In this document: positions 446 through 56,508 of the stretch, piece after piece
Layout: each line of letters starts with the position of its first letter
Position numbering within the stretch: position 1 is the stretch's first letter
Assembly (NCBI RefSeq): GCF_002161215.1
Contig: NZ_NFMB01000003.1
Span: forward strand, 1 to 64,000
Origin: Flavonifractor sp. An10
GTDB lineage: Bacteria > Bacillota > Clostridia > Oscillospirales > Oscillospiraceae
Direction: 5' to 3'
DNA length: 64,000 bases
Translations under genes and position numbers: made by a program
Notes under the pieces: generated by a model
Seen by the model: only the letters and a program-made list of their open reading frames with translations
Databases searched by the model: none
What the model was told of the DNA's origin: nothing

Positions 446-446
446 T

Positions 447-492
447 TCAAATGGAAGGGGGCATCCTTATCAGGATGCCCCCTTCCATTTGA
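447..492 (+). terminator. Rho-independent terminator of spoVT
   Basis: A perfect 20-bp inverted repeat (447-466 and 473-492) with a 6-nt loop begins two bases after the spoVT stop codon. There is no long T tract; the 3' arm ends CCATTTGA and runs straight into repeat family A. Confidence 0.8.
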
Positions 493-638
493 GAAAAGCT
501 GCACGCAGGGCAGGCCTCGATTTCTGGCGAAAAAGTCGGCCTGCCCTGCGTGAGAAGTGTCATTTCCGAGGCACATGTCCCCGGAAATGACGGATTTTGA
601 TTTTATTCCGCCGCCTGCGGGCGGCGGAACTCTGTGAG
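493..638 (+). repeat. Structured intergenic repeat, family A, copy 1
   Basis: Three consecutive hairpins joined by conserved linkers. Stem 1 is 502-552 (CACGCAGGGCAGGCC pairing with GGCCTGCCCTGCGTG). Stem 2 is 559-591 (GTCATTTCCG with CGGAAATGAC, enclosing GCACATGTCC). A linker reading CGGATTTTGATTTTATTCC follows, then stem 3 at 606-629 (TTCCGCCGCC with GGCGGCGGAA), and the tail GGAACTCTGTGAG. The linkers GAGAAGTG, CACATGTCC, GATTTTGATTTTATTCC and GGAACTCTG are shared with copies at 11911-12060 and 13201-13336 while the stem sequences differ. No coding potential is evident. It could be a REP/MITE-like element or an RNA. Confidence 0.8.
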
Positions 639-643
639 ACAGA

Positions 644-11882: not shown

Positions 11883-11912
11883 TCAAAAAAGTGGCATAAG
11901 CCACTTTTTTGA
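11883..11912 (+). terminator. Terminator after the Big2 protein gene
   Basis: CAAAAAAGTGGC, loop, GCCACTTTTTTG: a classic hairpin with A/T tails, continuing directly into family A copy 2. Confidence 0.85.
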
Positions 11913-12060
11913 GAAGGACTGCATGGCGGAAGAGGCTCGATTTCTTGCGAAATTGTCGCCCCTTCCGCCATGAGAAGTGTCATTTCCGAGGCGCATGTCC
12001 CCGGAAATGACAGATTTTGATTTTATTCCTGCGGCTGCGGCCGCAGGAACTCTGCGAGGC
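11911..12060 (+). repeat. Structured intergenic repeat, family A, copy 2
   Basis: Same order as copy 1. Stem 1 (11922-11972) is CATGGCGGAAG...CTTCCGCCATG enclosing a small hairpin ATTTC-TTGC-GAAAT. GAGAAGTG precedes stem 2 (GTCATTTCCG...CGGAAATGAC with GCGCATGTCC inside). The linker CAGATTTTGATTTTATTCC follows, then stem 3 (TTCCTGCGGC...GCCGCAGGAA) and GGAACTCTGCGAGGC. Stems 1 and 3 differ in sequence from copy 1 yet pair fully. Confidence 0.82.
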
Positions 12061-12091
12061 CTCCCCTCGGGAAAGGTCTTTTGACAAGCTG

Positions 12092-13172: not shown

Positions 13173-13200
13173 AACAATGCCTCCCTTCCGTATCCTAAAG

Positions 13201-13336
13201 CCTCGCAGAGTTCCGTCATCCGCGGATGACGGAATAAAATCAAAATCTGTTTTTCCCAAGGACATGTGCCTTGGGAAAAACACTTCTCAGCCTCCAAGTG
13301 CGGCCCTGTGCCGCGCGCAGGAGGCTGTATCCTTTT
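13201..13336 (-). repeat. Structured intergenic repeat, family A, copy 3 (minus strand)
   Basis: Read on the minus strand it has CAGCCTCC...GGAGGCTG (stem 1, with inner GCGGC-ACAG-GGCCGC), GAGAAGTG, then stem 2 TTTTTCCCAAGG-CACATGT-CCTTGGGAAAAA, the linker CAGATTTTGATTTTATTCC, stem 3 GTCATCCGCGGATGAC and GGAACTCTGCGAGGC. All three stems are new sequences relative to copies 1 and 2, while linkers and the CACATGTCC loop are retained. Confidence 0.82.
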
Positions 13337-13380
13337 CAAAGAGGGCGGAGTATGGCGAAGGCCATACTCCGCCCTCTTTG
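13337..13380 (-). terminator. Terminator of rnj
   Basis: A perfect 20-bp inverted repeat (13337-13356 with 13361-13380) begins three bases after the rnj stop and leads into family A copy 3. Confidence 0.8.
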
Positions 13381-13382
13381 AC

Positions 13383-15041
13383 TCACACTTCCATGATAAC
13401 AGGCAGGATCATGGGATTGCGCTTGGTTTTCTTGTAGAGGAAGTTGGAGATGGCGTTCTTGATCTCCGACTTGATGGCGGCCCAGTCGTTGAGGGTGTCG
13501 GTCTGGCACTCCTCCAGGGCCTTGACGGCAACCTTCCGCAGCTCCTCCATGAGGCCCTCGGACTCCTTGACGTACACGAAGCCCCGGGTGATGATGTCGG
13601 GGCCGGACACCACGGAGCCGTCCTCCCCGGACATGGAGACCACCACCACGATCATGCCGTCCTCGGCCAGGTGCTTCCGATCCCGGAGCACCACGCTGCC
13701 CACGTCGCCCACGCCGTAGCCGTCCACGAACACCCGCCCGGCGGGCACGGTGCCGTTGATCTTGGCGGAGTTGGGGGTGAGCTCGATGACCTTGCCGATG
13801 TCGCTGATGATGATGTTCTTGGGGGGCATGCCCATCTGCTGGGCCAGCTTGGCGTGGGTTTTCAGGTGCCGCTGCTCCCCGTGGACGGGGATAAAGAACT
13901 TGGGCTTGACCAGGGCGTGGATGATCTTCAGCTCCTCCTGGCAGGCGTGGCCCGACACGTGGAGGGCGCCCAGCCGCTCGTTGACCACCTCGGCGTCCTT
14001 GCGGTAGAGCTCGTTGATCACGTTACCGATGGAGTTCTCGTTGCCGGGGATGGCGGAGGCGGAGATGATCACCCGGTCGCCGGCCTGGATGTCCACCTGC
14101 CGGTGGGTGTTGAAGGCCATGCGGGTGAGGGCGGACATGGTCTCGCCCTGGCTTCCGGTGGTGATGATGCAGATCTTGTGCTTGGGCAGGCTCTTGATAT
14201 GGGCCAGATCCACCAGCACCCCGTCGGGTATGCTCATATAGCCCAGCTCGGTGGACACCTTCATGGCATTCTCCATGGAGCGGCCGGTGACCGCCACCTT
14301 GCGGCCGTACCGGGCCGCCACGTCGATGATCTGCTGGATGCGATCCACGTTGGAGGCGAAGGTGGTGACAATGATGCGCTGCTGACAGCCCCGGAACAGG
14401 GCGTCAAAGGAGTCGCCCACGCTGCGCTCGCTCTTGGTGAAGCCGGGGCGTTCCACATTGGTGGAGTCGGCCAGCAGGGCCAGCACGCCCTCCTTGCCCA
14501 GCTGCCCCAGGCGGCCCAGATCCATCATGCCGCCCTGGATGGGGGTGGGGTCGATCTTGAAGTCGCCGGTGTGCACCACCGTGCCCACCCCGCACTTGAT
14601 GGCAAAGCCGCAGGCGTCGGCGATGGAGTGGTTCACGTGGATGAACTCCACGGTGAACTTGCCCGCCTTCACCACCTCGCCGGCCTCGCAGGTGATCAGC
14701 TTGGTCTTGTTCAGCAGGCGGTGCTCCTCCAGCTTCAGCTTCACCAGCCCGGCGGTCATGCGGGTGGCGTAGATGGGCACGTTCACATCCCGCAGCAGAT
14801 AGGGGATGGAGCCGATGTGATCCTCGTGGCCGTGGGTGAGGAAGATGCCCCGGATGCGGTCTTTATTCTTGATGAGATAGGTGAAGTCGGGGATCACCAC
14901 GTCGATGCCGTACATGTCGTCGTCGGGGAAGCCCATGCCCACGTCGATGATGATGATGTCCCCGCCGTACTCGTAGACGGTCAGATTCTTGCCGATCTCG
15001 TTGAGTCCGCCCAGGGAGATGATTTTCAGTTTTTCAGCCAT
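13383..15041 (-). CDS. rnj: Ribonuclease J
   Basis: A 552-residue metallo-beta-lactamase/beta-CASP ribonuclease combining endonuclease and 5'-3' exonuclease activity in mRNA decay and rRNA maturation. Motifs: LGGLNEIGKNLTVYEYG at the N-terminus, THGHEDHIGSIPYL (HxHxDH metal ligands, about 74-87), HSIADACGF and GTVVHTGDFKID (about 143-168), beta-CASP motifs including SGHACQEELK (about 365-374) and HGEQRHL (about 390-396), then the RNase J C-terminal domain. Length matches the family. Start ATG 15041 (MAEKLKIISLGG) is chosen by homology to family N-termini; GGAG lies about 15 bases upstream, longer than usual, and an in-frame ATG at 15077 is the alternative. Confidence 0.93.
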   Translation of the reverse strand: MAEKLKIISLGGLNEIGKNLTVYEYGGDIIIIDVGMGFPDDDMYGIDVVIPDFTYLIKNKDRIRGIFLTHGHEDHIGSIPYLLRDVNVPIYATRMTAGLVKLKLEEHRLLNKTKLITCEAGEVVKAGKFTVEFIHVNHSIADACGFAIKCGVGTVVHTGDFKIDPTPIQGGMMDLGRLGQLGKEGVLALLADSTNVERPGFTKSERSVGDSFDALFRGCQQRIIVTTFASNVDRIQQIIDVAARYGRKVAVTGRSMENAMKVSTELGYMSIPDGVLVDLAHIKSLPKHKICIITTGSQGETMSALTRMAFNTHRQVDIQAGDRVIISASAIPGNENSIGNVINELYRKDAEVVNERLGALHVSGHACQEELKIIHALVKPKFFIPVHGEQRHLKTHAKLAQQMGMPPKNIIISDIGKVIELTPNSAKINGTVPAGRVFVDGYGVGDVGSVVLRDRKHLAEDGMIVVVVSMSGEDGSVVSGPDIITRGFVYVKESEGLMEELRKVAVKALEECQTDTLNDWAAIKSEIKNAISNFLYKKTKRNPMILPVIMEV

Positions 15042-41125: not shown

Positions 41126-41510
41126 AGATTCAGCAATTCTTTTTCCTATCCAAATGCAAAAAATGCAGAATAGGGACAGAAAATAGAATGCACTGATGTG
41201 ATATATTATTTGGGCGCTTTTATATCACGGAGCAAGTAGCGCAACCGGTCTATTGAGGATGGCAGCACATGGCTGCCGTCCGGCAATAGGCCGGTTTTTG
41301 CTATGCAAAAGCATAGCAAAATCGGCCATGTGCCGCTTTCAGCGGCACGGACATGAAATCAAAAGCGCGTGGGCCGGGACGGCCCACATGCGCAAAAACT
41401 TCATGCACTCCGACTTTTGCCTGTGTCCCTGGTGCGCCCCAAGCGCATGACGTTTTATCTCCTGCCCGATGAGGGCCCGCACGGCGGGCGGGCAGAAAAG
41501 GGAGGCTGCA
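41126..41510 (+). ncRNA. Long structured 5' leader of the polyphosphate/exopolymer operon
   Basis: No gene in 441 bases. Seen in order: GTGATATA...TATATCAC (41198-41228) which competes with GCGC...GCGC pairing (41214-41242); a terminator-like hairpin (41244-41299); GCTATGC-AAAA-GCATAGC (41300-41317); a GCCGC-TTTCA-GCGGC hairpin (about 41332-41346); GCGCGTGGGCC-GGGAC-GGCCCACATGCGC (41366-41394); and further short hairpins to the RBS (AAAGGGAGG). The layout suggests a riboswitch-like or protein-binding leader; it does not match the cyclic-di-GMP I or II riboswitch consensus as I know them. Confidence 0.55.
41244..41299 (+). terminator. Attenuator-like terminator in the leader
   Basis: ACCGG-T-CTATTG...GGCAGC-ACAT-GGCTGCC...CAATAG-G-CCGGT followed by TTTTT. 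It is a three-part stem ending in a T tract, upstream of the first gene. Confidence 0.65.
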
Positions 41511-55864: not shown

Positions 55865-56508
55865 CAGCTGCAGAGGACGCAAAAGGCGGCAAAGCTGCGG
55901 GCCTTCTCAGCGTGTCGAAAAAGTCTTTTCGACACGCTGACGAACTTTTTGAAACTTCAAAAAAGTTTCAAAAAGTTATTTGATCCAACGCAAAAGGGAA
56001 CCCTGACGGTTCCCTTTCACACTATCCCTCCCTCCGAATCCTTCGGCTGAAAGGTTTATCGACAGCCCGGGAATTGCCCCATCTCCGCGCCAGGAGCCGC
56101 CGCAAGCGGCGGTTGGCCTCGAAACGCGCCTGCGGGCGCAGTGCGCCGCCCCATCTGCGATGGGGCCCTGAAGGAGCGCAAGCAAAATGCCGCCCATATG
56201 GGCGGCATTTTGATAAATCCGGCAGATAAATCAGCGCTTGCTGAACTTCAAGAGCTTGGTGTTGCCCCTGCCAAACATCCGGTGATTCCTTCGCTTTCCT
56301 CCTGATTTTTGGCTTAATACTGCGGTTTTTCCGCACATCATGTTCTAATTTTTATCCTCGTGCATGACGCACGAAAAGCAAGTTTTGCTCCTTATGTGTG
56401 CCTTGCGTATTGCTGCCCAGGGCGACGCAGGACAACAGTAGGGAAAGAAACTTGGTTGCTGTTCTCGTCATCACCTCAAAATCAAATTCACACACGGAGG
56501 ACAGCATA
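55865..56508. other. Non-coding junction between the chromosomal operon and the mobile element
   Basis: It starts with the operon terminators, then AAAGGGAACC-CTGAC-GGTTCCCTTT (55993-56017), GCCGCCGC-AA-GCGGCGG (56096-56113), GCGCC-TGCG-GGCGC (56126-56140), CCCCATC-TGC-GATGGGG (56149-56165), and the palindrome AAAATGCCGCCC-AT-ATGGGCGGCATTTT (56185-56212). From about 56,215 composition becomes AT-richer and leads into tnpV, so the left end of the mobile element lies near 56.2-56.4 kb. No attachment repeat can be fixed without the right end. Confidence 0.45.
55909..55938 (+). terminator. Terminator of the exopolymer operon
   Basis: AGCGTGTCGAAAA, AGTC, TTTTCGACACGCT, followed by a second hairpin AACTTTTTGAAACTT...AAGTTTCAAAAAGTT (55944-55978). 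Confidence 0.75.

Follow-up and report, generated by a model that had tools for sequence, protein, structure and literature searches.

A high-copy intergenic hairpin repeat of Flavonifractor sp. An10, probably a MITE-like element with IS1182-type ends

The window, meaning the whole stretch of DNA that was analysed, comprises the first 64,000 nucleotides of contig NZ_NFMB01000003.1 of Flavonifractor sp. An10 (GCF_002161215.1). It holds three copies of an intergenic repeat, here called family A, at 493-638 (+), 11911-12060 (+) and 13201-13336 (-), and the positions and strands given for them in a preliminary description of this DNA were all borne out on the sequence. That description counted three stems. 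All three are present, and a fourth hairpin (stem 0) precedes them in each copy, starting no more than about 10 bases from a stop codon, so that the repeat has four hairpins. The parts of the copies, together with one copy of a second family treated further below, are as follows; R1 denotes a covariance model of the family A 3' half, and the end scan used the 11-base core TGTCGAAAAAG.

446-493 (+): copy 1 stem 0, a terminator-like hairpin after the TGA stop at 443-445 (sequence, fold)
502-552 (+): copy 1 stem 1, internal loop TCGATTTC..GTC (sequence, fold)
552-640 (+): copy 1 3' module, consisting of GAGAAGTG, stem 2 (560-590), linker, stem 3 (606-629) and tail CTCTGTGAGAC (R1, 105.5 bits)
11883-11912 (+): copy 2 stem 0 and 5' end core with 2 mismatches (sequence, end scan)
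11922-11971 (+): copy 2 stem 1, CATGGCGGAAG..CTTCCGCCAT (sequence)
11972-12060 (+): copy 2 3' module, with stem 2, linker, stem 3 and tail (R1, 110.1 bits)
12078-12088 (+): copy 2 3' end core with 2 mismatches, then a terminator-like hairpin (sequence, end scan)
13336-13381 (-): copy 3 stem 0, after the TGA stop at 13383-13385 (sequence)
13289-13327 (-): copy 3 stem 1, GCGCGC..ACTTG subtype (sequence)
13200-13288 (-): copy 3 3' module, with a same-strand gene next (R1, 105.5 bits; contexts)
55907-56067 (+): copy of the second family (ends, left-end hairpins)

As had been reported, the three copies share GAGAAGTG, the linker GATTTTGATTTTATTCC, the tail GGAACTCTG and the loop CACATGTCC, which varies by one base in copy 2 (CGCATGTCC). 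The arms of stems 1-3 pair yet differ among the copies, which agrees with the unrelated but complementary arms first described, except that copies 1 and 2 have the same stem 2. Taken together with its stem 0 (446-642), copy 1 has a folding z of -11.9. It is A1-like, although a loose pattern had mistyped it as subtype B; no end core was found in it at up to 2 mismatches. Its stem 0 matches the native terminator in position, and a terminator-like hairpin also takes the place of this stem in genomes G019 and G014. Copy 2 is placed between a stop codon and a terminator and keeps both ends, with 2 mismatches each. Copy 3 is located between co-directional genes, and the end scan found no core in it at up to 3 mismatches. 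Stem 0, ends resembling terminal inverted repeats, inserts in the hairpin loops of certain other copies and roughly 85 additional copies all go beyond the preliminary description, which had proposed the genome searches, Rfam comparison and covariation test reported next.

The R1 search of the genome identified 87 places at E <= 0.01, and a further search added one, giving 88, far beyond chance. BLAST returned 44 rows at more than 35 distinct places, while a search for the tail motif that allowed 2 mismatches found 93 places versus 9 for a reversed control. Ends and contexts were analysed for 81 of the 88 places, 7 being left out. Across 60 genomes, the own genome among them, R1 matched in 23. 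Of the 19 genus relatives, 4 had no match, and one of these 4 is 99% complete. Under stricter filters, copy number in the genus was 73 in the own genome and 0 to 41 in relatives, and 71 copies were counted in one genome of another family. The exact tail motif, a 15-base pattern with many chance records, occurs among the matches listed in Pseudoflavonifractor, Flavonifractor, Intestinimonas and Evtepia. R1 matched 31 of 42 loci drawn from the tail-motif matches listed, and 0 of the 9 among them that came from unrelated phyla. No Rfam family covers the repeat at the gathering score: a scan of the window placed only a c-di-GMP-II riboswitch, elsewhere (41177-41259, +, 66 bits), and the region of copy 1 gave 29 matches at E <= 5, none at the gathering score, the best (E 0.0006) lying over the downstream terminator.

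Family A elements are about 200-275 bp long and form four hairpins, a number that differs in subtype B. Conserved in them are GAGAAGTG, the loop CRCATGT, an AT-rich linker and CTCTGCGAGGC. Stem 1 comes in two subtypes; in a third group (CTAGATAC) the 3' module is the same and the part 5' of it differs. Covariation was evaluated across stems 2 and 3, which covary strongly, other genomes and genera included. In a structure-free alignment of 39 own copies, 91.4% of 759 cells pair, compared with 69.8% after shuffling; double changes occur in 16 of 21 pairs, and covariation is 0.435 versus 0.136. The two larger alignments were fitted to the model, and in these the paired fraction is 97.2% for 76 distinct rows (among 80 rows aligned, 3 were weak or antisense matches) and 97.8% for 50 distinct rows from other genomes. 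G-U pairs make up less than 1% of standard pairs in family A stems and are equally rare, at 1.1%, in 29 terminator hairpins; their rarity was tried as a discriminator between RNA and DNA explanations and fails to separate them.

Retained pairing with changed sequence had been taken as the mark of selection on structure, a step that is unsafe here, given cassette swaps at several orthologous sites. At such sites, with flanks 79-97% identical, entire hairpins differ beside unchanged neighbours. L169 and L181 have one stem-1 subtype in the own genome and the other subtype in G019; L166 differs from G019 in stems 1 and 2 and agrees in stem 3; and at L198 and L180 the inner hairpins are swapped and the first hairpin is conserved, L198 retaining stem 3 too. 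L027 and L343 are near-identical but for an insert in the stem 2 loop, a clean insertion, and other inserts were observed in stem 2 and stem 3 loops, some of them inverted. Inside the element the alignment of L183, L222 and L009 is poor, and the sites compared have only position and a model match (32-48 bits) in common. Since whole hairpins are swapped and linkers kept, changed but complementary stems would arise partly by cassette exchange, and covariation is possible without a chain of compensatory mutations.

A hairpin cassette of about 46 bases (CCCCCCAGGGGGCCCTCTCTTGCCCCTTCGGGGCAATTCACCTTG) occupies the stem 2 loop of L174, L179, L182, L187, L190 and L192, and lies in reverse in L171. At L184 (G000 C13:251080), stem 3 and the tail directly follow a T-box-like leader (by eye), before a gene start.

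An explanation of the stem covariation by hairpin replacement, gene conversion between copies or template-switch correction of palindromes, with no selection on structure, is quite plausible, though we lean slightly against it. It is consistent with the whole hairpins that differ at orthologous sites beside the same neighbours, with the near absence of G-U pairs, and with the terminators of the same gene, which also turn over as complete palindromes (by eye). Against it, single pairs also change with compensation inside stem-2 classes, and some constraint seems needed because linkers, loop and tail are conserved across families and the stems are not.

The ends of the element point to a named family of insertion sequences. 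Many family A copies start with CAGSSTGTCGAAAAAG and finish in its complement. The core TGTCGAAAAAG was found on both sides of 37 of the 81 copies at up to 2 mismatches and of 50 at up to 3, compared with 0 and 1.0 for shuffled flanks. At up to 3 mismatches, the 5' core is present in 64/81 copies and the 3' core in 55/81; with shuffled flanks, about 10 of 81 copies come to this level on the 5' side and 9 on the 3' side. The reversed pattern, as a control, matched the 5' side of 25/81 copies, and both sides of 2/81 at up to 2 mismatches and of 23 at up to 3, figures that are inflated because the reversed pattern resembles the linker after stem 0. One ORF-bearing insertion sequence (IS) with family A ends was found among the end-motif matches listed. 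It lies at C10:285162-286729, with ends CAGCCTGTCGAGAAAG and CTTTTTCGACAGCCTG (the 16-base end with 1 and 0 mismatches), and a 36-bp hairpin abuts both of its sides as a direct repeat with 2 differences (by eye). Its ORF matches NF033551 IS1182 (NCBIfam) at 370 bits against a cut-off of 270, and also PF13751 and PF05598. Of the four PF13751 loci of the genome, one of them a fragment, two further ORFs were compared and have no such ends at up to 2 mismatches.

Family A copies also carry duplicated flanks. The outer flanks are direct repeats above the control (99.5th percentile of 2450 swapped pairs) in 22 of the 50 two-ended copies; this percentile was 11 and the control maximum 15, which 19 of the 22 exceed. 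A hairpin arm of at least 9 bp is present in 19 of the 22 duplicated flanks; the repeats of these 19 are 23-35 bp long and no more than 5 bases away from the trimmed ends. In some pairs (L197, L030, L185, L028 and L025, by eye) the loop is inverted between the two hairpin copies. A duplicated hairpin was not found in the other 28 of the 50. Separately, L280 (C2:113231-113273) is a solo palindrome made up of both ends and the stem 0 core only, and a terminator-like hairpin adjoins it.

The upstream flanks of the 22 flank-repeat copies were searched in four relatives, orthology being presumed from the upstream gene. None of the 20 presumed orthologous sites (18 in G019, 2 in G014) had an R1 match. 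Where flanks align well and lie close together (L037, L197, L190, L023 and L195), one matching or single terminator hairpin stands between them, with a second, smaller hairpin also present at the L037 site. By eye, a single terminator-like hairpin was observed at about 12 of the 20 sites, the remainder being less clear. For L190 and its counterpart L376, a 26-bp hairpin is double in the own genome and single in G019. At the copy 2 site, the loci of G019, G008 and G015 have no R1 match. The copy 3 site, inspected by eye in 15 relatives, has the terminator only in 14 and a truncated remnant in G014, where stem 0 is diverged but paired; R1 was silent there in relatives but for L260, at 14.5 bits (E 0.05), taken as chance. 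Copy 1 had been considered a clean empty site in G019, a reading since dropped: by the alignment, part of the stem 1 5' arm seems to persist in G019 and G014, and deletion after an older insertion is therefore likelier at that site.

A second family, which occupies at least 37 places of the genome, has the same IS1182-type ends, and its left end is a double hairpin like CAGCCTGTCGAAAAAGTCTTTTCGACAGGCTG. Flank repeats exceeded the control (maximum 12) in 26 of its 31 two-ended copies, among 34 places analysed. These repeats are 22-38 bp long, and nearly all are hairpins by eye. The contexts of the 34 places include 18 convergent, 4 tandem sense and 2 antisense. A third short palindromic repeat (ATCTCCGCGCC or ATCTCGGCC..GCCGCCGC..GCGGCGG..) was seen by eye in hairpins of both MITE families, at these loci:

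L042, L278, L279, L283, L284 (either orientation): third-repeat loci (by eye)

We consider it likely that family A is a non-autonomous MITE-like repeat, with the ends of the resident IS1182-family IS, inserted at hairpins and ageing by decay of its ends. Sequence comparison demonstrates the shared ends, hairpin duplications, element-free sites in relatives, context bias, covariation and swaps, and mobility by way of IS1182-type ends with terminator duplication is well supported at this level. A transposase of the IS1182 type would move the elements in trans, aiming insertion at DNA hairpins, chiefly intrinsic terminators. Cutting at both feet of the target hairpin would leave a terminator copy on each side of the element, and the host gene would therefore keep a terminator. 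The ends would then decay with age, and the longest survivors would be cotranscribed, mostly sense copies that follow a stop codon and precede the next gene or terminator. Hairpins may be replaced by whole-element or cassette exchange between copies, with other repeats inserted into loops, the linkers and tail passing unchanged through the replacement. We infer the role of the IS at C10:285162-286729 as transposase supplier, and likewise the cutting mechanism, the ageing of copies and the mechanism of exchange. The preliminary description's reading of a REP/MITE-like element with structural constraint was thus largely right, in that two-ended copies behave as IS1182-type MITEs and covariation is strong in the 50 outside rows.

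Several observations weigh against this reading. Among the end-motif matches listed, only one IS has the family A ends, and 28 of the 50 two-ended copies lack a duplicated hairpin. PF13751 does not track copy number: it matches in 7 of 20 genus genomes and is absent from G002, G014 and G004 (each 99% complete; 17, 12 and 7 copies) and from G008, G013 and G005 (41, 37 and 33 copies; 79-89% complete), and G015 has 4 PF13751 matches and zero family A copies. Tracking of the transposase across genomes is expected of a MITE without strictly defining one, and past activity would do. The internal module is conserved across families and is unneeded for DDE transposition, which weighs against the IS1182-MITE reading.

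Copies with and without ends differ in their surroundings. Gene strand calls were correct for 92/92 held-out pieces, taken from genes picked by the same GC-phase rule. Copies without clear ends are those with no end core at up to 2 mismatches (n = 27), 12 of which have none at up to 3. Among these, 17 are tandem sense and 0 antisense (binomial 1.5e-5) and 2 are convergent, the rest having no call; the tandem test omitted flanks that could not be called (17 left; 16 right and 3 too short). Copies with both ends (n = 37) include 14 convergent, 4 tandem sense, 2 tandem antisense and 1 divergent, and those with one end (n = 17) include 4 sense and 6 convergent, again with no call for the rest. The upstream gene is in sense for 22 end-less copies, and in every one of them an in-frame stop precedes the R1 start by 75-130 bases. 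A position is common with G019 for 6/27 end-less, 3/17 one-ended and 0/37 two-ended copies (9/44 versus 0/37, P = 0.003), in a genome that is 81% complete and with flank presence checked for only some copies. Upstream genes are also shared between end-less copies and loci of other MAGs (L059 with L222, L077 with L183).

These differences bear on an explanation that we regard as rather doubtful, in which family A is a functional structured RNA of 3'-UTRs or intercistronic regions whose core is the 3' module, the IS1182 ends having been captured later by some lineages. Stem 0 would be a terminator or attenuator, and the rest would set read-through, processing or stability. The 17:0 sense orientation of end-less tandem copies and the concentration of shared G019 positions among end-less and one-ended copies speak for it, as do the different 5' parts found before the 3' module and the recurrence of that module in other families with conserved linkers. 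However, compared directly with two-ended copies (4:2), the orientation bias reaches only P = 0.06, or 0.02 with the second family pooled into the two-ended class (8:4), and at the L183 site, one of the nine shared positions, the G019 element (L359) lies in the opposite orientation. The genus relatives that have no match, and the rarity of G-U pairs, as in terminator hairpins, also count against it, and end-less copies may be merely old MITEs in tolerant places. For sense-oriented end-less copies, the "undescribed RNA" of the preliminary description is possible, although no test showed RNA function.

An alternative that joins the two ideas, which we offer only tentatively and think unlikely, is a structured intercistronic RNA module, recognised via its linkers, loop and tail, that has spread in Oscillospiraceae as cargo of an IS1182-type MITE, with hairpins exchanged as cassettes at fixed positions. 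If so, RNA can evolve by wholesale replacement of its sequence under a preserved structure, a course that standard covariation tests would misread. The proposal that the outer inverted repeats act as an antiterminator was rejected, as duplicated terminators and element-free sites fit better.

Returning to family A as a MITE-like repeat with IS1182-type ends, our best guess for its internal module is a cotranscribed 3'-UTR or intercistronic RNA, and we infer a role in the transcript for the conserved linkers. Should the module act in RNA, many genes have received similar 3' structures from a transposon. Family A and the second family would provide a natural high-copy record of hairpin-directed insertion with the terminator duplicated, for which element-free sites are known; because of this duplication, insertion may spare the terminator of the host gene. 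They also carry a warning that strong covariation in bacterial intergenic repeats can stem from hairpin swapping.

A literature search turned up neither a description of the family A repeat, though a survey of structured RNAs of human microbiomes (PMC8040213) might contain the motif, nor any account of terminator-associated IS1182 MITEs. Among IS1182 members, long duplications can occur. Passages of Wan et al. 2017 (PMC5678879) and Furi et al. 2016 (PMC4923244) report hairpin or terminator targeting by IS1272 and TnSha1, with the hairpin lost in the case of IS1272; duplication of the whole stem-loop is, in the part of Wan et al. that treats it (PMC5678879), only one possible pathway of a model. 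Family A thus resembles IS1182-family MITEs in its ends, common to the resident IS1182 IS, and in its hairpin or terminator targeting. In contrast, IS1272, the best-studied relative, deletes its target hairpin as far as those passages go, whereas in family A the target hairpin is duplicated on both sides, a difference that weighs against the IS1182-MITE reading. BOX, RUP and SPRITE of Streptococcus pneumoniae are described, in parts of two reports (PMC3049150, PMC10969869), as small modular intergenic repeats with predicted stem-loops and mutual insertion, over-represented between convergent genes and transcribed as 3' extensions. By those partial descriptions, and not by sequence, family A is alike in its modular stem-loop intergenic make-up; what sets it apart is that a named IS family is indicated by its ends and its target duplication. 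The comparison with REP and BIME elements is again by description. These elements, with their RAYT transposases, are mobile extragenic palindromes in mosaics (PMC2817692), as family A would be, but the ends of family A match those of a DDE IS.
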